Shown: positions 4,200 to 39,405 of the stretch, one piece after another
Layout: each line of letters opens with the position of its first letter
Numbering within the stretch: position 1 is the stretch's first letter
IMG/VR virus record: IMGVR_UViG_3300036766_000304
Span: 1-39,475 of that record
Reading direction: 5' to 3' (one strand)
Source of the DNA: a virus
DNA length: 39,475 nt
Program-made: the position numbers and the translations under genes
The notes under the pieces: generated by a model
What the model was told of the DNA's origin: nothing
The model's input: only the letters and a program-made list of their open reading frames with translations
The model's database searches: none

Positions 4200-7100
4200 C
4201 TAAAATATTCCTGGGTCTTGGAACATGATAAAGCCATTACAGTTAGCAAACATCCTTTCTTCACCACCTATTGCTGTCCATTTAGGCTCATCGTACTGAG
4301 TCCAGTCTACTGTTGGTCGCATATAGAACCAATCATAATCTTCATTTGCTGAAGCCTCTCGCCCTATTCTGACGCAACCACCAGAATTGTAGGTAGCATC
4401 AGAGGTTACTACATATCCGCAACCATCCAGACCGAGGGAAATACCAGATGTGGCATTGACCCATGAAGCAGTTACCCTCATCCATGTATCATCCTGAATC
4501 AAGTTAGCATCAAGGTTTATTGTGGCTAAGGATGATGCTGACCCATCAGCTTTGTAAATGGTTAAGAGGTGATGCCCCAATAACATTAGATATCCCTGGT
4601 CATAAGCAGTTTTGTCTGTCGCTGAACTCTTAATGATAAGAGGAAAACCAGTGGCTCCAGTGGATTTATAATACATATTATAGACTTTAGGAGAAGATGC
4701 TATATCGGTAACTAATAATTTCTGGCGATGCACCTGACCTACAGTACCAGCAGTCCGCACGAAATAACCAGACGAAGGTAGACCACCAGATGTCGCTGTC
4801 CATGTACCTAACACGCTTGTCCACGAAGTATATCCTGCAGAACGGGCATCTTGATTATGTCCATCATCCCAATCATCAGCCCAGTCTTCCTCCGTGATAT
4901 CGTAAGTAGCATCATAGATAACTTCACCTGCACCACCCCCACCAGATGAACCACCACCACCTGCTGCAACTACCAGAAGCTCAACAGTGGTAGTCCCAGG
5001 TGGGGCATGATATGTTCCGCTGGCAGTAAACACCGTTTGTCCTACGGCGTCTTTGACAATAACTACACCAGAGCCACCTGCACCGCCCGTATAACCATTT
5101 CTAGCACCTCCACCACCGCCTCCAGTGTTGGCTGTGCCAGCAGCACCATTGTTCCCGCCATTACCACCTCCTGCTCCACCACCTGATGATGCTGTTCCCT
5201 CTGTACCACCAGCCGCATAGTTCGAGCCACCACCACCACCTCCAAACCACCCAGAAACTCCAACACTTGTTCCGAAATGAGAACTCATGTCTACGCCTGC
5301 GCCACCATTGCCGCATATCCCAGTAGCGGTTCCACTCCCACCTACAGCTCCAGCACCACCACCACCTCCTGAAGCATAAGGACTTAACCTATAGTTCCCA
5401 TTGCCTCCACCATCGTTGTTGTATTCAGTGCCGCCATTGGGGGTTCCATTGGTCTGCGCACCACCAGTAGATTGCAATGTAGACGCAGCACCACCACCAC
5501 CTCCTGAACCTCCAGCAATACCTGGGTTAGCATCAGGAACATTACCTCCACCACCCCCTATGGCTATTGTAGTGCCGAATGACGAATTTCCTCCATTTCC
5601 TCCTACAGCATTAAGAAGATGACCTGCGCCACCTGCCCCAACAACGACAGCCACTTCACGTCCACTGAATATATCAGCAATCTTCCATGTTGGTGCAGAC
5701 GCCTGCGGATTGCCATAGTAGACATAATAAGTTTGTGTAACACCATTAGTAGGTGTAGTTACTGGTAATTGACACCAAAACTCAGCTTCCTGGGAATTAG
5801 TTGACTCATAAGGATTCTTGATTATGGGTACTAAGGTAACCCCATCACTTCTAGTCAGTCTTACATCATCAAAATCAGTCTGACACTTTCGGAGAGTAAA
5901 CACAGTATTGAATAAGCTACGCTCTGACAGAAAGAAGCTTTGTGGTGCGCCTGCTAGATCGGTTGAGCCTATAGAACATAATACCTTTCCATCAGCACGC
6001 TCTGCGTGATAAGTAGGCCAACCTAGATAAGCATTTGAAACGTTCCATGTTGCTACTAATTGATGTCTGGCAATCACTTTCCAAGTACCTGATTCGCCAG
6101 TAGGAGAGGTAACTATATATAAGGTCGTATTTGTTCCAGCTAATCCTGCCTCGGCATAGGTTCCCGCTACCATAGCACCGCGGGATGAAACTGCTATGCT
6201 GGAAAAAGCAGCGTAACCAGTTGGGAGAGTATAAACAGAAGTCCAGTTATACGGTCCCGAACCTTGATCTTGTAATCTAAAAATCTGGTTTGCTGTACCG
6301 TCTAGTAGCTCCTCACCGATGTAAACATAGTCATTTCTGCAACAAATAGCAGTTGCCATCTTGGGATATACCGATACCTTTTCCCATGTATTACCAGCAT
6401 CCTTAGTTTTCCAAAGGAAACATGATTCAGCCACTTTTGATAGTACTTGAGTACCTTTCGGTTGTGTAGTTATGGGAGGGGTAACATCAGGCAAATAGGC
6501 AGAAACCCAATATGCTGTCGTGCCTCCAACACTGGATGATGCCCAATCTGTAGGCATTGTCCATTCGATAGTCCCCACACCTGCAACTTTCCACTGATCG
6601 AAATTGGCTACACTCGGCGTTACACCAGATAATAGTTGCCAAGTGCTATCATTCCTATAATACCACCAAGTTATAGTCCAAGTGCCTACCCCTGCCGTAC
6701 CCACATTTATATCCAGATGTCTACTTGGTTCTTTGAATCCGAAGTAGTAACCATCCTCATTATCAACAGGAGAGGCAGGCAGCAAGTTCATATCATTTTG
6801 GGTACTAGGCTCACCCACAACATTGTTAAGTGCTGCCATTGTTTCATCAGTATAAACAGTATTATCCCTTGCCATAGCCGATATTAATTCGGTGTTATCT
6901 GAAAACATATCTGAGACTGTCGCACCTGCAGTCCATTCACCAGAATAGACATAGATAGCATCATTAGTTGAACTATATCGAGTCAGGTGCATGTGCCGGG
7001 CAACAAATGACTTACTTGAGGCTGACCATGCTTGTGTTGCTACGGGGGAGGTGGTCGGCGCACCAGAATTTATGTAACATCTTACCCAATACCCTGTTAT

Positions 7101-8190: not shown

Positions 8191-9000
8191 TTAACTCCTC
8201 GTAAATGTAATCACTATTCCTATTAACTGAGCATCTCCAGCAAGTGTGTCTCCTGCATTGTCAGCATCTCTCATACATTCCCAGACAGTCCATTCTCCAG
8301 CAGTTGCATTAGCTACAGTAATACTGCTTGTTGTGACGCTGCTATGTATATAGCTTGCTGTAGTAGAGGTACAGTCTGCAACTTGAGGATTGCCTAGAGC
8401 TGCTTCTATAGCTTCATTATTTCCCCAGCTACCAGCCTTGATAGACCAGTAAACATGCTGAGATGCGGAACCAGTAGTATATGTCCAAATTGGAGCAGCA
8501 GTTACAGTGCCAGCATTCCAGTCTGAGGGCATTGCAAAAGCCCATTGTGCATATTCCTTGGTGGACTGGTCAAAGTCCAAAGTATAATAGTTGATCTTGT
8601 TGGTAGCTGACTCATATAATGTGGCTGAGGCACAACCATTACTTGTTCTAGGTATTCCCCCTTGAGCAGTAAGATATATCTTGCCAGTAAATGTAATAGC
8701 ATCAGACCATGCTAACTGACCTGGATCATCATCCCACTTCAGGTACTTGTCTGCCCCAGGGTCAGCAGGAACTCCATGATTTCCTATCAAGGCTGCATTA
8801 TGGTCAAAAGCCCAGTTGGAGGAGATGGCCTGAGTTGTATGACCATCAACTGGATTTGGGTCGTCTACAGTAACGGTAGGAACTGACACTCCGTTCACCT
8901 GCACCTCAGCAGAAGAGGGCATATTGGCTGTTGAGAAGGCAGCCAGTCCAATAGAGGCTAACGTGATTACTATTAAGAGATACTTGAGTAGTTTAGACAT
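8191..9000 (-). CDS. Fibre-like protein with N-terminal signal/anchor sequence
   Basis: 269 residues. The N-terminus (MSKLLKYLLIVITLASIGLA) is a Sec signal or membrane anchor. Next come SSNWAFDHNAALIGNHG, a motif typical of phage tail-fibre shafts, and a C-terminal half starting GKIYLTAQGGIPRTSNG that matches a beta-sandwich domain widely found at phage particle surfaces. It is separated by one base from the downstream large adhesin and has an AAGGAGGAG ribosome site. Exported fibre or virion surface component, inferred. Confidence 0.7.
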   Translation of the reverse strand: MSKLLKYLLIVITLASIGLAAFSTANMPSSAEVQVNGVSVPTVTVDDPNPVDGHTTQAISSNWAFDHNAALIGNHGVPADPGADKYLKWDDDPGQLAWSDAITFTGKIYLTAQGGIPRTSNGCASATLYESATNKINYYTLDFDQSTKEYAQWAFAMPSDWNAGTVTAAPIWTYTTGSASQHVYWSIKAGSWGNNEAIEAALGNPQVADCTSTTASYIHSSVTTSSITVANATAGEWTVWECMRDADNAGDTLAGDAQLIGIVITFTRS

Positions 9001-20643: not shown

Positions 20644-21606
20644 TTAAGCCCTTTGATATGCCGGTTGCCATCTGGCTCTCGGTGAACTCCACATAGGATA
20701 CAACTTCTTCATTTGCTCTATAATAGATTCAGCAGGCGTGCCCTGTGACTCTGCTAATCCTAACGCCATTTGTTTTTGCGGTTGTGTCCAACTCCACCAG
20801 GTTGAAGCTGAGGGATATTTCCAGTTTGTCGGCAATGCTGCGCCTGTCTGAGTACCATAAACCTTAGCCAACCAATCAGGAGTCGTTGCCTCTGGTTGCC
20901 CTACCAGCTTTTGCTCTCGCTGTAATGCGGCCTGGACTTCGGGGCGGAGAAGATCAGGAGAAATAGCCTCCCGTGCTGTCTCAGGGATGGCCTCTCGGCT
21001 TGTATGTAACCACGCTTGCTGAGTGGGTAGCATAGAGGATCGCTGTGAGAACTCTATCCAGCTACGGGGGTTCTTCTGCAACTCTTGAAGTTTGTCAATT
21101 TCTTGTTGATATAAATTGAAAGAGTCAACCCATGTCTGTTCTTTTCTTGTTTTCTCTTGTTCTTCCTGTTCAACATCCCATCTCCCTTTTTCAACATCCC
21201 ATTTCTCTCTGGCCAACTGTTCAGAAGGGGTTAAACCAGCCGTTTCACCCGTAAGTTTTGCCAATGCTGTCCCTGGGTCAATGACGTTATATCTGTTAGG
21301 AGTAGAGATGTCTATGTCAATGTAAGTGCCATTCCTGAATGTTACTCTGTATTGTTTAGGATTGGGATTAGTGAATTCTACACCCGCAACGGTGGTAGTA
21401 GTATCAAGGGGTGTCCGACCTATAATCTCCCCATTGGCCGCAATAAGTGCCTGCCATTCTTCTTCGGTCATTCCCCAAGCAGCCTCTCCTTCTGCTTGGG
21501 GAACAGTCGGTTTTATTGGAGCAGTCGCTGGAGTAGCCTCCGGCTCCTTCAAAAGGTCGTCTAATATCTTTTGAATTTCTTCTGTGGGATCTTTGGGATC
21601 AGGCAT
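20644..21606 (-). CDS. Hypothetical head-module protein, coiled-coil rich
   Basis: 320 residues with an acidic Pro/Ala-rich N-terminus, a small beta domain (GVEFTNPNPKQYRVTFRNGTYI) at residues 75-100, and a charged coiled-coil stretch (EKWDVEKGRWDVEQEEQEK) at about 133-155. The C-terminus has tryptophan clusters (STWWSWTQPQKQM). No family known to me. It overlaps the upstream gene by one base and abuts the large polyvalent protein; probably an internal virion protein that acts with it. Confidence 0.6.
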   Translation of the reverse strand: MPDPKDPTEEIQKILDDLLKEPEATPATAPIKPTVPQAEGEAAWGMTEEEWQALIAANGEIIGRTPLDTTTTVAGVEFTNPNPKQYRVTFRNGTYIDIDISTPNRYNVIDPGTALAKLTGETAGLTPSEQLAREKWDVEKGRWDVEQEEQEKTRKEQTWVDSFNLYQQEIDKLQELQKNPRSWIEFSQRSSMLPTQQAWLHTSREAIPETAREAISPDLLRPEVQAALQREQKLVGQPEATTPDWLAKVYGTQTGAALPTNWKYPSASTWWSWTQPQKQMALGLAESQGTPAESIIEQMKKLYPMWSSPRARWQPAYQRA

Positions 21607-21869
21607 TAGCGTCTCCTCGCAGTCAGTTTGATTCGTTCCATCTTACTAATCCAGTTCTCAATCTCAGGTATCCTGTCCGGATGTTGCTTGACCAAATTGA
21701 TTATCCCCTGTGCCCCCATGTTCTCATAAACTGACAACTGCTCTGCCTCAGACATTTTCCTGGTCCCAGGGGGACGGGGTAGTTGTTTCCTTACCGATTC
21801 AAGAACACGTGTAATATAATCAGGCACATAGTCAGCTACTTTATCGAGATGGGTCTTATCCTCAGCCAT
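21606..21869 (-). CDS. Small helical protein following the portal
   Basis: 87 residues, helical, with a basic end (KMERIKLTARRR). The start overlaps the portal stop as TGATG, a sign of tight coupling. It contains ENMGAQGIINLV, whose core NMGAQG recurs in the large polyvalent protein, so the two may share a docking motif. Function unknown. Confidence 0.6.
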   Translation of the reverse strand: MAEDKTHLDKVADYVPDYITRVLESVRKQLPRPPGTRKMSEAEQLSVYENMGAQGIINLVKQHPDRIPEIENWISKMERIKLTARRR

Positions 21870-26438: not shown

Positions 26439-26489
26439 TGTAGCTTCACTCCGATTTTAATTCCCGTTCAGGGGAAAGTCCTCACCTCA

Positions 26490-26515
26490 CGCAGTCGCAC
26501 AGCTCAGCGTCTGCG
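26490..26515. repeat. 26-nt quasi-palindromic element, copy 1 (intergenic)
   Basis: Reads CGCAGTCGCA on the left arm and ends CGTCTGCG, with an AGCT-containing centre. Its reverse complement matches the elements at 36229-36254 and 31558-31628 in nearly every position. Here it lies outside genes. Confidence 0.7.
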
Positions 26516-26544
26516 AGTGGGGAGACTATTTTCCCCAAAATCCC

Positions 26545-26567
26545 AAAAGTACTCACCACAGTGGGTA
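26545..26567. repeat. 23-nt dispersed repeat, copy 1 (intergenic)
   Basis: An exact 23-nt match to 30786-30808, which lies inside the DUF1064 gene. The core folds as TACTCAC-CACA-GTGGGTA (one T-G pair). Confidence 0.8.
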
Positions 26568-27259: not shown

Positions 27260-27709
27260 ATGTTGCACACAACCTTAGCACTAGCCCATAAAGCCGGAGC
27301 CTGTACAGACCGGTACAAGCATTTGGCAAAAGCCCTGGGTGGCATCACAGCCTATGGAAAGGACACTCCCATTCCCCTGACCATAGTGCTAGAGCACAAC
27401 GGCCTAGATGATACCCTGTGGGCACTCAGGTGCGTATTGCCTGAGGAGATTCCCTTGAGGGATAAGCTGGCCAGGTCCTTCGCCTGTGATTGCGCCGAGC
27501 GGGTGCTATCTCTGTTTGAGAAGAAATACCCCGATGACCAGAGACCCCGGCAAGCCATAGAGATCGCCAGACTCTTCGCTGAGGGGAAGGCAACCACTCA
27601 AGAATTGGCTGCTGCCAGGGATGCTGCCTGGGCTGCTGCCGAGGCTGCTGCCAGGGATGCTGAACAAAAATGGCAGGGCCAGCACCTGCAGGAGATGTTA
27701 TTAGCCTGA
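27260..27709 (+). CDS. Imm-5-like protein
   Basis: 149 residues with IVLEHNGLDDTLWALRCVLP at 42-61, then FACDCAERVLSLFEKKYPDDQRP and AIEIARLFAEGKATTQELAAA, ending in an alanine-rich helical repeat (AAWAAAEAAARDAEQ). This is the layout of the Imm-5-like family, annotated as putative immunity proteins and frequent in phages and actinobacteria. Real function unproved. AAGGAGAGGAG ribosome site. Confidence 0.7.
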   Translation: MLHTTLALAHKAGACTDRYKHLAKALGGITAYGKDTPIPLTIVLEHNGLDDTLWALRCVLPEEIPLRDKLARSFACDCAERVLSLFEKKYPDDQRPRQAIEIARLFAEGKATTQELAAARDAAWAAAEAAARDAEQKWQGQHLQEMLLA

Positions 27710-27976: not shown

Positions 27977-28135
27977 ATGAAACACAAATGTCTGCGCTGC
28001 AACCATACCTGGAAAGGCCGGGTACAGAATCCTCAGTGCTGCCCGGCCTGTAAATCCTACGATTGGAAAAGTCCTCACAGTCGCCCCAGGGGGGACAAGC
28101 CTCGTAACCGTCGAGAAGACAAGAGGAGCCGCTGA
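27977..28135 (+). CDS. 52-residue zinc ribbon with basic tail
   Basis: Starts MKHKCLRCNHTWKGR, with the second knuckle in CCPACKSYDWKSP, then an Arg/Lys-rich tail (RPRGDKPRNRREDKRSR). It closely matches the C-terminal ribbon of the HNH protein at 26788-27228, so the two share origin. Likely nucleic-acid binding. Its stop codon is inside the hairpin that closes the island. Confidence 0.75.
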   Translation: MKHKCLRCNHTWKGRVQNPQCCPACKSYDWKSPHSRPRGDKPRNRREDKRSR

Positions 28136-28231: not shown

Positions 28232-28255
28232 AAAACCTATAATATTATAGGTTTT
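28232..28255. promoter_or_regulatory. 24-bp perfect palindrome in the convergent gap
   Basis: AAAACCTATAAT is followed directly by its reverse complement ATTATAGGTTTT. It lies about 24 bases beyond the methyltransferase stop and 80 bases after the plus-strand hairpin. With no loop it looks more like a dimeric-protein site, though an AT hairpin terminator for converging messages is also possible. Confidence 0.5.
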
Positions 28256-28972: not shown

Positions 28973-29422
28973 TTATCTAATCCTCAAATGGGCAGATTTC
29001 AAATAATAGTGTCGCTGACTTTTCCAGTTCGCAAATGAAGTGGATTTCCGCTTCCAGCCACAGCAATAATATAGAGCAGACCGAGCCGACTTCTCCAAAT
29101 CTCCCCAGGTGCAGTCTGCCCTCAGTTGATAATAGAGAACTCGACCCGCTAGCCCAGTCCTCTGTAATCTTGCCTCTATTTCCGCCGCTATCATAGCAGG
29201 ATTTTCAAATGGTGCTCTAAAACTCTTTATCCCAAGCCTGGGACCCGGGACATCAATAGAACTCTGATTGGGATCACGGGGCCAGCAGCCTTCAGTGAGC
29301 AAAGGAAGCATATAGATCAGCCACAAAACCTGATCTCTGGTAAAAGTAATATCTCTCGGTGGCCACCAGAAACTATCCCAGGTAGCCCGGCGACTGGGAC
29401 TATCCCAATCCGGTATGCTCAT
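28973..29422 (-). CDS. Tryptophan-rich hypothetical protein
   Basis: 149 residues from the ATG at 29422, preceded by GAGGGGG; a GTG at 29428 overlapping the upstream stop is the alternative. The sequence is rich in aromatic residues (TWDSFWWPPRDITF, LWLIYMLPLLTEGCWPRDP). The C-terminal part (DLEKSARSALYYCCGWKRKS) may form a helix-turn-helix. No family recognised. Located between an ASCH-like gene and a methyltransferase. Confidence 0.6.
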   Translation of the reverse strand: MSIPDWDSPSRRATWDSFWWPPRDITFTRDQVLWLIYMLPLLTEGCWPRDPNQSSIDVPGPRLGIKSFRAPFENPAMIAAEIEARLQRTGLAGRVLYYQLRADCTWGDLEKSARSALYYCCGWKRKSTSFANWKSQRHYYLKSAHLRIR

Positions 29423-29424
29423 TA

Positions 29425-30627
29425 TCACCCCCTCTTATTCAAGATAGAGAACTCAATTACCCACACCCAAGGATTGGTGTCCCAGCCATAGCCTCGTTTA
29501 GCATTGAGAGAATCCCAAAGACCAATAAAGTGGTCACGGTGTATAAATGGCCTTTCAATCTCAGTAAAGTGTGGTTTAGGTTTCAACTCAAAGTGTTGTA
29601 TAGTTTTTGCTATGAGTTGACAGCCTTCATTTATCGTGTCCTCCTCGCTTATCTCCTGCAACCGCTCTACTTTCACCCTTGTAATCTCAAGCCAGATGCG
29701 GGCTGCCCACTTGGGCATGAAAATTGAGGGTCGTGTTTTTAATACTTCCTTTTGACAACTGCGGATATGCCAGCCTGGGACATCCCAAGAATCCGCGCCG
29801 CTTGGTGCTGGCTGACTAATCTTTTCTGAATCGACCACTGTAACGCTTGCATCTCGAATGTGGTCAACTTCGCCATTGGGTGTTTGCCCGCTTCCGTCCC
29901 ATGTCCCGATAACTTCCTGTCCATCCAGTTCTCTTGTTGGCTTCCCCATTTCAAGTTTGTCGGCACGTTGTTGGATGAGTCGCTGTCTAAATGTCTTGTT
30001 TGAGAAGATGGGGACGGTGGCATCCCATGAAAAGCCATACATATCAGAGAGTGAACGGATTTTGACACTTTTTTGTTCTGGTGGGACAACGTAATAGTCT
30101 GGTATCCCTTCCCATTCTGGTGTCCTTGTAGCGGATACCAATCCACGTACACCTTGTGACCAAAGCCTTTGTATTTTGTTCGTGAGTAGACTTGACCATC
30201 CGAACCCGCCATGTAATCCTCGTTGGGGGAGATTGGGATAGCTTTGAGAAGGACTCCACTCGTCAGTTTTATACCTTCCATCTTGTACCTCCATTGACAT
30301 AAGTATAGCATATAATCTATCATCGGTCAAGCGGTACAATATGTCTACATTGGGTATTAGTGATTCATCCAGCAACATATGAGTTGATTTACACCACAGC
30401 CTGTCACCAGGCTGGCCGTATCTGCACTTGAAAACTTGTCCTCTGTTCGGGTCGTGTTGCATCAAGCCAACCCACTCATTAGGTATTTTCATTGGGAGGA
30501 CATCAATCGGTTGTTTGCCCTTCCACTCGCCTGTTTGAGCCACGACTACACGGCGTGTCTGTGTCTTTCTGCCTTCAAGGATAGCCTTGACCATCTCGGT
30601 CGAAAATAAGATTGGTTGCTCTTTCAT
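29425..30627 (-). CDS. ASCH-like phage protein enlarged by an insertion
   Basis: 400 residues. The N-terminal MKEQPILFSTEMVKAILEGR, KTQTRRV and RYGQPGDRLWCK, and the C-terminal PSIFMPKWAARIWLEITRVKVERLQEIS and NPWVWVIEF, are hallmarks of a common phage ASCH-superfamily (RNA/base-binding) protein that is normally about 220 residues. Residues about 120-297 do not belong: they are the other-frame reading of a homing endonuclease gene. Removing them gives a normal-length product. No stop occurs across the insertion, so a long fusion protein would be made. Overlaps the upstream gene as ATGA. Confidence 0.75.
   Translation of the reverse strand: MKEQPILFSTEMVKAILEGRKTQTRRVVVAQTGEWKGKQPIDVLPMKIPNEWVGLMQHDPNRGQVFKCRYGQPGDRLWCKSTHMLLDESLIPNVDILYRLTDDRLYAILMSMEVQDGRYKTDEWSPSQSYPNLPQRGLHGGFGWSSLLTNKIQRLWSQGVRGLVSATRTPEWEGIPDYYVVPPEQKSVKIRSLSDMYGFSWDATVPIFSNKTFRQRLIQQRADKLEMGKPTRELDGQEVIGTWDGSGQTPNGEVDHIRDASVTVVDSEKISQPAPSGADSWDVPGWHIRSCQKEVLKTRPSIFMPKWAARIWLEITRVKVERLQEISEEDTINEGCQLIAKTIQHFELKPKPHFTEIERPFIHRDHFIGLWDSLNAKRGYGWDTNPWVWVIEFSILNKRG
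29739..30281 (-). CDS. NUMOD4/HNH homing endonuclease nested in the ASCH gene
   Basis: 180 residues from MEGIKLTSG at 30281, which has GGAGGT 6 bases upstream. NUMOD4-like start (PNEDYMAGSDGQVYSRT), then VDWYPLQGHQNGKGYQ and KSVHSLICMAFHG. HNH core RHLDSDSSNNVPTNLKWGS and QEN, GTEAGKHPMAKLT, and a C-terminal helix-turn-helix (QHQAARILGMSQAGISAV). This is the standard layout of phage homing endonucleases. It lies in a different frame from the surrounding ASCH gene and almost fills the insertion, leaving no room for an intron ribozyme. Confidence 0.85.
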   Translation of the reverse strand: MEGIKLTSGVLLKAIPISPNEDYMAGSDGQVYSRTKYKGFGHKVYVDWYPLQGHQNGKGYQTITLSHQNKKVSKSVHSLICMAFHGMPPSPSSQTRHLDSDSSNNVPTNLKWGSQQENWMDRKLSGHGTEAGKHPMAKLTTFEMQALQWSIQKRLVSQHQAARILGMSQAGISAVVKRKY

Positions 30628-30986
30628 GGCTTCACCACCCTTAGTTCAATACTGGGATAATGGTATCTAAACATCTTTTCTTTGAGCTTCCAGAGAGGAG
30701 TCTCTGCACCCTTTACGTCCTCAACAACCTTCTTCTCAGTCTCATTATCCCAGTATGCAAAGTCCGCCACATAGTATATTGCCCGAAAAGTACTCACCAC
30801 AGTGGGTATAGTTTTGCCTAACCTGACAAATGGAGGTTGTAGCATATACCGAGGTTGATACTCCAAATCCTTAATCTTCCCCGCCCCCTGTAATAACTCC
30901 AGCTCCTGTGCTCTATGCGCTTCGGCTTTGCTGGCAAACGTCCTGCCATTATATTCAGTTACTCTTGAGTGGTATTTAGTTGTCAT
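30624..30986 (-). CDS. DUF1064 nuclease-like phage protein with a repeat-encoded segment
   Basis: 120 residues from MTTKYHSRV (ATG at 30986, AAAGGT upstream). An earlier ATG at 31061 would overlap the preceding gene by 47 bases. FASKAEAHRAQELELLQ, GKIKDLEYQPRYMLQPPF, YVADFAYWD and VVEDVKG are the DUF1064 signature; the E, D, E and K residues suggest a restriction-endonuclease-fold nuclease, perhaps a junction resolvase. Residues 60-67 (PTVVSTF) are encoded by the 23-nt repeat 30786-30808, at a point where the family normally runs straight into RAIxYxADF. Confidence 0.75.
   Translation of the reverse strand: MTTKYHSRVTEYNGRTFASKAEAHRAQELELLQGAGKIKDLEYQPRYMLQPPFVRLGKTIPTVVSTFRAIYYVADFAYWDNETEKKVVEDVKGAETPLWKLKEKMFRYHYPSIELRVVKP
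30786..30808. repeat. 23-nt dispersed repeat, copy 2 (inside DUF1064 gene)
   Basis: Identical over 23 nt to 26545-26567. It adds about eight in-frame codons to the nuclease-like protein. Confidence 0.8.
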
Positions 30987-31014
30987 TATGTCACATACCT
31001 TTGAAGCTAATTCC

Positions 31015-31215
31015 TTAGTCGGTCTTATCCTTTGCCGTATTGCTGCGAGTGGGCACTTCACTTGATTGCCGTATTATTGAAATGATATGTTTTGCCCACC
31101 CTTCCCTACGACGGCGGCAATTCTGGCACTCGCATTCGTCTCCTTTAATGTGTATCCTTAGATATTCTGCTATCTCCCTTTCGAGACCCCCTTCTCTTTT
31201 TTCTCCTATCGTCAT
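31015..31215 (-). CDS. Small hypothetical protein with cysteine cluster
   Basis: 66 residues starting MTIGEKREGGLEREIAEYLR; the start is fixed by an ATGA overlap with the upstream ribbon gene. A CECQNC cluster and a basic helix (RRRREGWAKHIISIIRQ) suggest metal and nucleic-acid binding. No family recognised. Confidence 0.65.
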   Translation of the reverse strand: MTIGEKREGGLEREIAEYLRIHIKGDECECQNCRRRREGWAKHIISIIRQSSEVPTRSNTAKDKTD

Positions 31216-31373
31216 CTTAGCATTATTCCTCCCTTCCTTGTTCTCTTGGCCGAGCTGAGGAAGTATGCGATGACCCCCTTCTGACACCGGGGGCAGTAAC
31301 GCTTCCTGGGTGCTAAGCCATCCTTGTAACGTAGCCCTGCCTTGTGGCAGACTGGACAGTAGCCGATTAGCAT
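31212..31373 (-). CDS. 53-residue zinc-ribbon protein
   Basis: MLIGYCPVCHKAGLRYKDG with a second knuckle YCPRCQKG: a classic CxxC...CxxC ribbon with a basic tail (SSAKRTRKGG). The start overlaps the upstream stop (ATGCTAA) and the end overlaps the next start (ATGA), so it is clearly part of the coupled early operon. Probably nucleic-acid binding. Confidence 0.75.
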   Translation of the reverse strand: MLIGYCPVCHKAGLRYKDGLAPRKRYCPRCQKGVIAYFLSSAKRTRKGGIMLR

Positions 31374-31699
31374 AGCACTATCCCTCCTTTCTTTCCCTCT
31401 GGAGCGGGGGACTTCTGTGGCCGGTAATCAATATAGCGCTTAGTCGCCTCCCGACTCTTATCCTCATATAGTTTCAGCACGTTTATCGTTGTTTCCGCAT
31501 CCTGTAAATCCATTAGTGCCCAACTTATCCTATTCGCTTCCCTCAACAGTTCATTCTCGCAGACGCTCAGCTTTGCCCCAGTCGTCCCACTAGTTCCTCT
31601 GGAGCGTGGGACGACTGGGGCGACTGCGTTAAATCCCAACTTGTCCTGCACCCGGTCACAATCTGCAAATGCCTTTCGGACTATTTCTTCAACTGTCAT
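31367..31699 (-). CDS. Early hypothetical protein carrying a nested palindromic insertion
   Basis: 110 residues from the ATG at 31699 (AAAGGA 9 bases upstream; overlaps the previous gene). An N-terminal helix (EEIVRKAFADCDRVQDKLGF) and a C-terminal helical part (ENELLREANRISWALMDLQDAE, YEDKSREATKRYIDY) are separated by NAVAPVVPRSRGTSGTTGAK, encoded entirely by the palindromic element 31558-31628. The helices resemble short phage replication or packaging accessories, but no family is recognised. The C-terminus (KSPAPEGK) is encoded by a further partial copy of the inner hairpin at 31395-31412. Confidence 0.65.
   Translation of the reverse strand: MTVEEIVRKAFADCDRVQDKLGFNAVAPVVPRSRGTSGTTGAKLSVCENELLREANRISWALMDLQDAETTINVLKLYEDKSREATKRYIDYRPQKSPAPEGKKGGIVLC
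31558..31628. repeat. 26-nt palindromic element with a nested 45-nt palindrome, read in frame
   Basis: The outer element, CGCAGACGCTCAGCTTTG then CGACTGCG, matches 36229-36254. Between its G and C lies a 45-nt insert (31576-31620) with perfect 15-bp arms, CCCCAGTCGTCCCAC and GTGGGACGACTGGGG, around a 15-nt centre. The insert length is a multiple of three and adds 15 codons to the gene. Confidence 0.85.
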
Positions 31700-32726
31700 C
31701 AAGGTATTCCTTTACCCTGAAATAAACCTTAACAGTAGTCCATGTTGTCACTGACAACAACGTTTTGGTTATCAGAGAACCAAGCCGATTTCTTAGCCAA
31801 TCGGCAACGAATATAGTTGGCACCTCAACCACAAACTCAGGCTCTTTATAACTCACTCCCTTGGTATCCTTCAGCCAAGTAACATAGTTGGCCTTCGCCG
31901 TCTTGTCTTTTAGTTCTAGTAGTGTATGATTCCAAACTTCTTCTGCCAACTCAGTCATGTTATTATGCAGGGGAATGTAGAGAATAGGTTTATTGTCCTC
32001 ACAGTCGCACACAGTCCCCTCTTTGGGGGACACAGTGTCTTTTGTTTTATATTCTCTTGCTTTAGTCAGCCAATTTAACAATGCCAACTTGGGATTCTTT
32101 AGTTTGCGTTTCCCCTCACTCCAGTAAAGATTAAATTTCTCTAACTCAACGTCAATATCTAATTCCTTGAATCGCTCCTTAAGTTCTTGTTGATATTCTT
32201 CAAAAGATGGTGATGGCGTCTTCTTCTTCTTTACTTTACTTTTCTTTTCTTTTACTTTACTTTTCTTTACTTTACTTTGTGGCGTTTCTGGTGGTGTTTC
32301 TGGTGGTGTTTCTGCGTCAGAAACAGGTAAGAAACTAGATTTTAGCTTTGTTTTTTGGTAGAGTTCTTTCATTAAATCTCTCTTTTCCAGCACCATAGAG
32401 GACCGTTTTTTAACACCATTGCTGGTTAAAATGCCATATTTCTCATAAATTTGTTTATTAAAACAACCCCATTTTAGGGCGGTGGTTAGCATTTCATTAA
32501 ATTTCTGTTCCGTTACTGCTACTTTTCTGGCAAGTATCTGAATGGTTTCTGCGTCAGAAACTATCAGTTCACACTTAGGCGACCGGTATATTCTCTCTAA
32601 TAGGATAAAAAAGAAGGCATAACCATCATTACCATGCAAAGCTCGCAGAGCTTCCAGCTTCTCATCATTGACCGCATCTGTATCATGCGGGAAATAATCT
32701 AATCCTTCTTTAGTTGGTCTCGCCAT
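31689..32726 (-). CDS. Replication initiation-like protein: DUF4373 N-terminus and DnaA-N-like C-terminus
   Basis: 345 residues. Residues 1-115 (GLDYFPHDTDAVNDEKLEAL, GNDGYAFFFILLERIY, YGILTSNGVKKR) match the Lin1244/DUF4373 N-terminal domain of phage replication initiators. A basic linker (SKVKKSKVKEKKSKVKKKK, about 150-168) follows. The last 85 residues (LAEEVWNHTLLELKD, YVTWLKDTKG, FVVEVPTIFVADWLRNRL) resemble DnaA domain I/II or DnaA_N proteins, which contact helicase. It may recruit the host replisome. Two identical 17-nt palindromes encode VSDAET twice. Confidence 0.75.
   Translation of the reverse strand: MARPTKEGLDYFPHDTDAVNDEKLEALRALHGNDGYAFFFILLERIYRSPKCELIVSDAETIQILARKVAVTEQKFNEMLTTALKWGCFNKQIYEKYGILTSNGVKKRSSMVLEKRDLMKELYQKTKLKSSFLPVSDAETPPETPPETPQSKVKKSKVKEKKSKVKKKKTPSPSFEEYQQELKERFKELDIDVELEKFNLYWSEGKRKLKNPKLALLNWLTKAREYKTKDTVSPKEGTVCDCEDNKPILYIPLHNNMTELAEEVWNHTLLELKDKTAKANYVTWLKDTKGVSYKEPEFVVEVPTIFVADWLRNRLGSLITKTLLSVTTWTTVKVYFRVKEYLDDS
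32308..32324. repeat. 17-nt palindromic repeat, copy 1
   Basis: GTTTCTGCGTCAGAAAC: perfect 7-bp arms and a 3-base loop. Identical to 32545-32561 in the same gene. Encodes VSDAET in the linker. Confidence 0.75.
32545..32561. repeat. 17-nt palindromic repeat, copy 2
   Basis: Identical to 32308-32324 and read in the same frame as VSDAET, here within the N-terminal domain. Confidence 0.75.
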
Positions 32727-33524: not shown

Positions 33525-33554
33525 TTCCTTTCCTCCTTTCTCTGGGTCGGCTGG

Positions 33555-33785: not shown

Positions 33786-33824
33786 TATTTCCTCCTTTCT
33801 CTGGGTTGGCTGGCTTTCGGTAAT

Positions 33825-34017
33825 CTAATCACCAGCCAACCCACCTGAGCCTATCTCCTTCACTATCCTTACTAGAGCAGGCATCTGTGTAAGTGAAAGT
33901 TCAAATGCTTTTCGGCTCAGGTACTTTGATTCGCCCTCGCCTACAATGAACGCTCCACCATCGCTCTTTTCAGAGACACCCAAAGCTGGTTCATTATCAT
34001 CAGTTCCCCAACTTCAT
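33825..34017 (-). CDS. Small gene with apparent +1 frameshift or lost start
   Basis: A convincing coding stretch (DDNEPALGVSEKSDGGAF, GEGESKYLSRKAFELSLTQM, RIVKEIGSGGLAGD) ends at 33825 and is followed by a junction cassette. It has no good start. An ATG at 34017 with AAAGGGG before it reads MKLGN then TGA; a +1 shift at AAC-TGA-T would join it to the long frame. Programmed frameshifting, a sequencing change, or a downstream exon are all possible. No family recognised. Confidence 0.45.
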
Positions 34018-35791: not shown

Positions 35792-35969
35792 CTTTGACCT
35801 CGGTGTGTTCTCTCAGCCCCCCTTGTTCCCATTGCCGACATGATATACACCAGTGATAAGGATAGTATTCACAGACTGGGCAGTATTTCATAAACACATA
35901 CCCATGACCGCCGATATAGAAGTAGTCTATTATTAACTCACCACCGCACTTTGGACAAAGTTTCACCAT
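35775..35969 (-). CDS. 64-residue zinc-ribbon protein
   Basis: MVKLCPKCGGELIIDYFYIG and KYCPVCEYY, then WCISCRQW: three CxxC knuckles, enough for one ribbon plus an extra pair. The start overlaps the previous stop (ATGGTGA). Probably nucleic-acid or protein binding; one of the cluster of early ribbon genes. Confidence 0.72.
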   Translation of the reverse strand: MVKLCPKCGGELIIDYFYIGGHGYVFMKYCPVCEYYPYHWCISCRQWEQGGLREHTEVKDGVLV

Positions 35970-36460
35970 ATTGCGGCGGCAAACCCTGCAAACTTGGTAT
36001 CCAATGGTAGCCGAGTGGCTATTGCTTGAAGGTTGGCTTGGTTAATCAGTTCCTCTAGTGCCTCGGAATCTTCTATGAGCCTTTTATGCTCTTCCTGAAC
36101 GCCATCCTTAACACCTTGTTGATAGCACATCTCACCGTAGACTGTAAGTGCTTCCTTCAAATCTCCGGGTTCCATGCGATCTAACTCCGCCTTGACTCTT
36201 AGGGTGGCCTCTTCCACTGTGATAGTTTCGCAGACGCAGAGCTTTGCGACTGCGTCAGTTGACTGCTCCTGCTGAGGCCAACGATGCCTGCTATGCTCCA
36301 CACCATTACAAGCCACATGATCGCCGCTGTGTCTGTAATAACGAGTACAATAATAACTGTTAGTTTGGGCTGAACAACGATCTCTGTTTTTGCCGCCGCA
36401 ATAAGGACACTCTGAGGGCGGCTTATGCACCCTTCCATGTGGTTTCGCCTGTTCTTTCAT
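35963..36460 (-). CDS. Zinc-finger early protein with a palindrome-encoded segment
   Basis: 165 residues. N-terminal cysteine/histidine motif: SECPYCGGKNRDRC, YYCTRYYRHSGDHVACNG, EHSRHRW. A linker TDAVAKLCVCETI is encoded by the palindromic element 36229-36254. The C-terminal half is helical (AELDRMEPGDLKEALTVYGEM, KRLIEDSEALEELINQAN). No family recognised. Overlaps the HNH gene by 38 bases. Confidence 0.65.
   Translation of the reverse strand: MKEQAKPHGRVHKPPSECPYCGGKNRDRCSAQTNSYYCTRYYRHSGDHVACNGVEHSRHRWPQQEQSTDAVAKLCVCETITVEEATLRVKAELDRMEPGDLKEALTVYGEMCYQQGVKDGVQEEHKRLIEDSEALEELINQANLQAIATRLPLDTKFAGFAAAIW
36229..36254. repeat. 26-nt quasi-palindromic element, copy 3 (in coding frame)
   Basis: Arms CGCAGACGCA and TGCGACTGCG (one mismatch) around GAGCTT. 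On the minus strand it is read as AVAKLCVCE, the same frame and nearly the same peptide as the flanks of the nested element at 31558-31628. Confidence 0.8.
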
Positions 36461-38474: not shown

Positions 38475-38503
38475 GTCCCACGCTCCTTTGGAGCTAGAGG
38501 GAT
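38475..38503. repeat. Relative of the inner 45-nt palindrome, at a gene end
   Basis: Begins GTCCCACGCTCC, identical over 12 nt to the reverse complement of the inner element at 31576-31620, and continues with the same CTAG and GGGA blocks. It covers the stop codon of the propeller gene and the space before the next ribosome site. Confidence 0.65.
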
Positions 38504-39405
38504 TATCCTAAAATGTAACCCCAACTACGACCTAGTGCTAATGCCCCAGCGTCCTCAGCTAAAGCATAGATAGTACCACCATAACTAGCACTATCAAGGA
38601 CAGTGCTCATATCTGTTTTGAGTATCTTCCTGACTTTGTAAGTAGTAGTGCCAGCAGCATAAATATAATCTGTGTCCTCAGCCAAGGCTCTGAGGGTGCC
38701 AAAGGCAGCACTATCGGCGACATATGACATATCTGACTTTAGTATCTTCTCAACCTTAGTACGGGTATAACCAGCAACATAGACATAGTTGATATCCTCA
38801 GCAGCTAAAGCTCTAATGGTGCCACCATAACCACTACTATGTGTTACAGCACTCATATCTGATTTTAGTATCTTATACACAGCTTGATTGACGCCAGCAG
38901 CATAGACATAATCAGCGTCCTCAGCTAGAGCATAGATAGTGCCATAGTCACTAACACTGTCCAAGATAGTTGTCATATCTGCTTTGAGTATCTTCCTGAC
39001 CCTGCCATAGCCAGCAGCATAGACATAATCAGCGTCCTCAGCTAGAGCAAAAATAGTATCACCATAACTAGCACTATCCAAAACAGTTGACATATCTGAT
39101 TTTAGTATCTTCCTGACTTTGTTAAGGGTCAGACCAGCAGCATAGATATAATTTGTGTCCTCAGTCAGAGCATAGATAGTGCCACCATAATCAGCACTAT
39201 CGAGGACAGTGCTCATATCTGATTTTAGTATCTTCCTGACTTTAGTGAGGGAAGAACTTGTTGCATAGATGTAGTTTGCATCATTAGTTAGGGCATAGAT
39301 AATACCACCTAGCGCAGCACTGTCTAGAATATCACTCATATCAGACTTAAGTATTTTCCTCACCACATCAGGCCAGGCACCACCCGCATAAACAAACCCA
39401 CTCAT
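38503..39405 (-). CDS. Seven-repeat beta-propeller fibre protein
   Basis: 300 residues made of seven tandem copies of a roughly 41-residue unit with the form DYVYAAG, KVRKILKSDMSTVLDSA, GGTIYALAED. One unit per blade gives a single closed seven-blade propeller. The DNA repeats at about 120-123 nt spacing (unit markers near 38607, 38730, 38850, 38973, 39090, 39213, 39336). The last blade breaks off into ALALGRSWGYILG, at the point where the dispersed element 38475-38503 begins. Probably a receptor-binding or virion surface protein; GAAGGT upstream. Confidence 0.75.
   Translation of the reverse strand: MSGFVYAGGAWPDVVRKILKSDMSDILDSAALGGIIYALTNDANYIYATSSSLTKVRKILKSDMSTVLDSADYGGTIYALTEDTNYIYAAGLTLNKVRKILKSDMSTVLDSASYGDTIFALAEDADYVYAAGYGRVRKILKADMTTILDSVSDYGTIYALAEDADYVYAAGVNQAVYKILKSDMSAVTHSSGYGGTIRALAAEDINYVYVAGYTRTKVEKILKSDMSYVADSAAFGTLRALAEDTDYIYAAGTTTYKVRKILKTDMSTVLDSASYGGTIYALAEDAGALALGRSWGYILG

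Follow-up and report, generated by a model that had tools for sequence, protein, structure and literature searches.

How a 110-residue phage protein came to carry two palindromic sequences, one set inside the other and both read in frame, is the question raised by positions 31558 to 31628 of a virus record that is 39,475 bases long and is, as a whole, called the window here. The original prediction described a 45-nt perfect palindrome nested in a 26-nt palindrome and proposed that both were mobile. The families to which these sequences belong are referred to below as F1 (the outer repeat), F2 and F4 (the type of the inner insert). The features at the locus itself are as follows.

31558-31628, minus strand: F1 copy split by a 45-nt F4-type insert (from the sequence, mismatch search and folding).
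31576-31620, minus strand: the F4-type insert, 45 nt, with 15-bp perfect arms and a 15-nt loop, encoding PVVPRSRGTSGTTGA.
31367-31699, minus strand: the ORF of the nested hairpin, 110 aa, with no Pfam or PHROG family.

The locus reads CGCAGACGCTCAGCTTTG, 45 nt, CGACTGCG, and on the minus strand the 26 nt of F1 read CGCAGTCG...CAAAGCTGAGCGTCTGCG; on the plus strand, a T stands on either side of the F1 copy. The coordinates and sequence are as originally described, both here and at the second site at 36229-36254, and translation bears out the in-frame reading of both palindromes, FNAVA-PVVPRSRGTSGTTGA-KLSVCE, with 15 extra residues gained between AVA and KLSVCE. The shapes require some qualification. 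The 15-bp arms of the 45-nt insert are indeed perfect (16 bp if the flanking G/C is counted), but they enclose an asymmetric, non-palindromic loop of 15 nt. The outer 26-mer is an inverted repeat but an imperfect one, and although F1 is split by 45 nt, the point of splitting, given as exactly G|C, is ambiguous by 1-2 nt due to the G/GC on both sides. No other perfect inverted repeat in the window with its arms so close together is as long as the insert, and the window has six hairpins with arms of at least 10 bp against 0.6 in shuffles. When folded, an 87-nt RNA of the hairpin reaches -45.3 kcal/mol, a stability well beyond that of shuffles (z = -5.9; as DNA, z = -6.0). A 17-nt sequence within the insert, GTCCCACGCTCCAGAGG (31596-31612), resembles 31396-31412 at the 3' end of the same ORF with one mismatch, the two window sites being about 180-200 nt apart, and has an exact match in a related contig (L003, at 10838). 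The 45-nt insert may, judging from its sequence, be a mosaic.

The window encodes a terminase, a P22-like portal, RecT, a replication protein of the Lin1244/DnaA_N type, a DUF1064 nuclease and HNH proteins, along with a gene for an Imm5-like immunity protein at 27260-27709 (Pfam E 8e-14). Its closest relatives are two IMG/VR contigs, L003 of 11.1 kb and L004 of 8.9 kb; their terminases share 98% identity with that of the window. The two contigs are 99.4% identical to each other over 5.2 kb, and in the parts that align with the window their identity to it is mostly 91-98%. These three genomes allow the same loci to be compared with and without palindromes. No insert-free allele of the 31367-31699 ORF was found, the relatives matching its last 19 residues only, and the stepwise history proposed below for the nested hairpin is therefore inferred from other loci.

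The outer palindrome recurs. Its consensus, CGCAGWCGCnnAGCTnnGCGWCTGCG, is an imperfect palindrome of 26 nt, and when as many as 3 mismatches are allowed, the window yields 5 matches, spread over 3 places, where 0.08 would be expected. Beyond the split copy, the F1 places are these.

36229-36254, minus strand: uninterrupted F1 copy CGCAGACGCAGAGCTTTGCGACTGCG (AVAKLCVCE).
35963-36460, minus strand: the 165-aa ORF that holds this uninterrupted copy.
26490-26515, plus strand: third F1 copy, intergenic and inside an F2 copy, found by mismatch search.
21618-21623, minus strand: CGCAGT in place of the complete F1 of L003, a 21-nt in-frame difference.

The site at 36229-36254 had been taken for the empty state of the nested hairpin; it is instead another F1 copy, in a different gene. 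The counterpart of the hairpin segment there reads AVA-KLCVCE, and common descent of the two AVA-KL-VCE proteins is not supported, their similarity being confined to about the element. The third copy had been overlooked. L003 carries F1 at 2312, at 8609 (common to L004, at 5179) and at about 10175, and L004 has one more at 7078. At 21618-21623, the short CGCAGT could be an empty-like site, implying a gain in L003, or the footprint of a loss. The reading frame of F1 changes from gene to gene, giving the peptides AVAKL.VC, TQTQSSASA and SRSRKALRLRV, so that it is the DNA that is kept and not the peptide. At six independent F1 places the base to the left is the same as the base to the right, either A or T. 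This is what a 1-nt target duplication would give, with a net length of 26 + 1 = 27.

F2, AAGTMCTCRCCNCAGTGGGKA, is a second family with copies both inside and outside genes; the window copies at 26545 and 30786 match each other exactly over 23 nt. Further copies are present in L003 and L004.

26545-26567, plus strand: F2 copy AAAAGTACTCACCACAGTGGGTA, at the same locus in L003/L004.
26476-26523, plus strand: composite of F2 and F1, AAGTCCTCACCTCA, F1, AGTGGGGA, intergenic, before an HNH gene.
30786-30808, plus strand: F2 copy inside the DUF1064 gene, adding 7 residues, IPTVVST.
30624-31061, minus strand: the gene for the DUF1064, Holliday-junction-resolvase-like nuclease that carries this F2.
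29424-29425, no strand: unoccupied F2 site CATTA|TCACC, at which L003/L004 carry AAGTCCTCGCCACAGTGGGGA.
31417-31418, no strand: unoccupied F2 site YRP|QKS near the 3' end of the 31367-31699 ORF.

In the composite, F1 occupies the loop of F2, as it also does in L003 and L004, and the unoccupied form of that F2 variant, AAAGTCCTCACCTCAGTGGGGAGA, lies at 6499 of L003 on the minus strand. The DUF1064 protein of the window reads GKT-IPTVVST-FRAIYYVADF, and the 7 residues are missing in four homologues from other phages (for example, GKTFRKIEYIADF). Presence or absence amounts to exactly 21 nt at two loci compared between the window and L003/L004. At one, CCATTA is followed by AAGTCCTCGCCACAGTGGGGA in the two contigs and by ATTATCACC in the window; depending on the start codon used, this site could sit just upstream of the coding part. 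At the other, the equivalent of 31417-31418 in the contigs is AAGTACTCACCACAGTGGGTA, giving YRP-KYSPQWV-QKS, within a short stretch of homology (48 nt). The length of F2 behaves as 20 + 1. F2-like matches in L013/L014, which have no other similarity to the window, were dismissed, as were those in L031-L035, of which L031-L034 encode a CPHCGEY-type zinc-finger motif.

The inner insert also has relatives. F4 comprises the 45-nt insert and a 32-nt piece of L003 (10182-10213); the assignment of a 22-nt core at 29377-29398 to it is weaker. The insert is homologous to the L003 piece (local alignment score of 28, with 0/2000 shuffles as good), and the two lie at equivalent positions within F1 at two unrelated loci. 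For the 22-nt core, the corresponding shuffle fraction is 0.07 against the 45-mer and 0.0075 against the L003 piece.

29373-29399, minus strand: F4-type insert of 27 nt, core CCCAGTCGCCGGGCTACCTGGG (29377-29398, minus strand), with CTATCCCA at both ends.
28973-29428, minus strand: the ORF with the three-state site, by translation.
28076-28102, plus strand: 27 extra nt, CACAGTCGCCCCAGGGGGGACAAGCCT, in a zinc-ribbon ORF relative to L003/L004; F4-like, weakly so.

The most informative locus, at 29372-29410, exists in three states. L004 is empty (CCAGAAGCTATCCCAATCC), and the window carries the 27-nt F4-type insert (CCAGAAACTATCCCAGGTAGCCCGGCGACTGGGACTATCCCAATCC). L003 has the window insert and, after GGCGACT, an F1 that is itself split by an F4 of 30-32 nt. 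The proteins follow suit, with DWDS-FWW in L004, DWDSPSRRATWDSFWW in the window, and DWDSP-TQSHSSAAVPRVPATGASA-SRRATWDSFWW in L003, where the middle segment is 19 residues long. This locus was aligned by hand, as an automatic MAFFT alignment misplaced L004.

Across the compared sites the differences are 21, 21, 21, 21, 27, 57 and 18 nt, each of them divisible by three. The families have distinct ends, CGCAG/CTGCG in F1, AAG/GTA or GGA in F2, and CCCAG/CTGGG in F4. The unit repeated at the ends is 1 nt for F1 and F2 and 5-8 nt (CTATCCCA) at the F4 site 29373-29399; because these putative target duplications differ between families, a single mechanism is not established.

Taken together, it is likely that the nested hairpin belongs among several non-autonomous mobile palindromes carried by this phage lineage, whose hosts are probably of the Dehalococcoidia type. 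The same sequences stand at unrelated loci, genic and intergenic, are present or absent in relatives, and nest in one another, all of which are marks of mobile DNA. Recurrence, occupied and unoccupied alleles, nesting and the kept frame are directly visible in the three genomes. The proposal of mobility gains support from L003 and L004, which show the same loci occupied and unoccupied and nesting more than once; the elements recur at other places, and segments of this kind vary among related phages rather than being fixed. At each site we infer gain rather than loss, although with only three related genomes the two cannot be polarised at most sites.

Other origins for the palindromes can be considered. 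Template switching or slippage at hairpins (quasi-palindrome mutagenesis) during replication may create or alter them without any element moving. A case for this can be made at the hairpin at 21471-21503, where the 9-nt loop of the window, CCTCTCCTT, is exactly inverted in L003 (about 2147-2196) and L003 gains an 18-nt in-frame palindrome made up of the 14-nt TCCCAAGCTTGGGA plus CTTG. The 17 nt shared by the 45-nt insert and a site some 180-200 nt away, with their single mismatch, can be read in the same way. Template switching may have acted at 21471-21503 and in building the 45-mer, but when local it would not account for identical 26-nt or 21-nt sequences at unrelated loci, in intergenic DNA and in the loop of F2, and as a general explanation we regard it as unlikely. 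Alternatively, F1 and F2 could be binding sites (operators, packaging or replication signals) kept by their function, with their presence in genes incidental. F1 is a near-palindrome of operator size, and both the F2-F1 composite and an F2 copy are intergenic, before an HNH gene and near promoter-like sequence. However, a binding site would need neither nesting of one family in another nor a kept frame, and presence or absence at one locus between close relatives, insertion within the conserved DUF1064 nuclease domain and the use of different reading frames all speak against this reading, which seems quite improbable. Finally, both relatives come from metagenomes as viral contigs, the window itself is a record of the IMG/VR type, and hairpins are hard to assemble, so that chimeras or assembly artefacts might be suspected. 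The same families and orthologous F2 insertions nevertheless appear in contigs with different sample numbers, and the net lengths keep the frame; an artefact is thus extremely improbable.

Among known systems, the closest in kind are the Rickettsia palindromic elements (RPEs), reportedly described by Ogata et al. in 2000 and 2002, to which the original prediction had likened the locus. As in that system, several families of palindromic repeats lie in frame in unrelated protein genes, and the likeness holds to that extent; here, however, the carrier is a phage, the families are nested, and alleles are caught both occupied and unoccupied. RPEs are palindromic repeats of about 150 bp in bacterial chromosomes (PMC10969869), whereas the phage inserts are 21-57 nt net with units of 20-45 nt. 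Membership of the RPE family is not supported, as RPEs are set apart by their size and taxon as described. The GC clusters of yeast mitochondria (GC42) are short, mobile, GC-rich hairpins flanked by AG or ACT (PMC4478555). They share with the phage elements the short, enzyme-free, GC-rich hairpin, presence and absence in close relatives, merging and short end repeats, a likeness drawn from their description. Unlike the phage elements, they are mitochondrial, mostly intergenic and flanked by AG/ACT; the contigs here carry a phage terminase, portal and RecT. GTAG- and CGTC-tagged REPs are likewise palindromes of 20-40 bp that can be intragenic, and GTAG repeats have been reported in Chloroflexi (PMC3733652), but the ends of F1, F2 and F4, read directly, lack a terminal GTAG or CGTC tag. 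MITEs are also non-autonomous, with inverted-repeat ends and possible target duplications, but at 70-300 bp (PMC3733652) they are far larger than the phage palindromes, for which no parental transposon was found. The best reading is of non-autonomous mobile palindromes resembling RPEs and yeast mitochondrial GC clusters, and no report of such elements in phages was found in the open-access literature.

The route by which such palindromes would move can be sketched. At least three families, F1 (26 nt, net 27), F2 (net 21) and F4 (22-45 nt), would insert at new places, landing in genes, in intergenic stretches and in one another. Within genes they would add whole codons, 7, 9, 15 or 19 extra residues, without a stop in the frames used; in a genome this compact, selection would remove any insertion that broke the frame. 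In the case of the nested hairpin (31558-31628), F1 would have entered an ancestral gene, followed by an F4-type hairpin entering F1 at CGCAGTCG^C. The hairpin would presumably be copied by an enzyme supplied in trans. One candidate is a host transposase acting on hairpins; another is the joint action of the phage HNH endonucleases and the annealing protein RecT, which could join a hairpin-forming single strand at a break. Either route must be considered doubtful at best. No transposase, including the REP-associated tyrosine transposase (RAYT), was recognised among the window ORFs scanned with Pfam.

Searches beyond the three genomes bear on where the palindromes reside. In IMG/VR, F1 returned only L003 and L004, and neither the 45-nt element nor relatives of the RecT were found there; a near-match search of phage records with 20-39 kb also gave none. 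The closest terminase in the genome collection, 61% identical, is from a Dehalococcoidia MAG, with Chloroflexota MAGs common among the further matches, and a host of this type is probable. The exact F1 pattern was absent from 84,980 species genomes. In 393 genomes from the class to which the nearest terminase belongs, F2 with at most 1 mismatch was absent, and F1 with at most 2 mismatches gave nothing but one unconvincing match. Given this absence from the genomes searched, the palindromes may have their reservoir within the phage lineage or in a host yet to be sampled. Neither an Rfam scan of the 26-37 kb stretch nor a search of the whole window for tRNAs returned anything.

Additional palindromes and repeats are present in the window. 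A 17-nt palindrome, GTTTCTGCGTCAGAAAC, occurs exactly twice in the replication-protein gene (32308-32324 and 32545-32561) and is possibly a further family. A perfect palindrome of 24 nt, AAAACCTATAATATTATAGGTTTT, at 28232-28255 is nearly conserved in L003/L004 with its centre changed. The repeats CTCTGGGTYGGCTGG and AGCCAGCCGAC lie near the ends of small ORFs (33529-33554, 33788-33813, 33035 and 33424), one pair making a 12-bp hairpin (33802-33843). About six repeats of roughly 120 nt at 38547-39357, within the gene at 38503-39405, were judged unrelated.

A few bacteria are known to have in-frame mobile palindromes, and mitochondria to have mobile hairpins; how these move is not settled (PMC10969869, PMC4478555). 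The units seen here, in a small phage genome, are very short, with net lengths of 21 and 27 nt, and are probably tiny mobile DNAs that make proteins longer without disrupting them. Since occupied, unoccupied and doubly nested states occur in close relatives, the choice of target, the length of the duplication and any bias in frame are open to direct reading. If further phages of the lineage are sequenced, both the mechanism and the consequences for proteins would become testable, for instance with the DUF1064 nuclease with and without its 7 residues. A broader and tentative possibility is that phages host their own minimal mobile DNA, enzyme-free hairpins of 20-26 nt that proliferate in a phage lineage and not in the host, with several families per genome serving as landing sites for one another, moved by phage recombination proteins and, through net lengths that are multiples of three, giving rise to new protein loops. 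If true, phage-borne hairpins would be a source of new protein loops.
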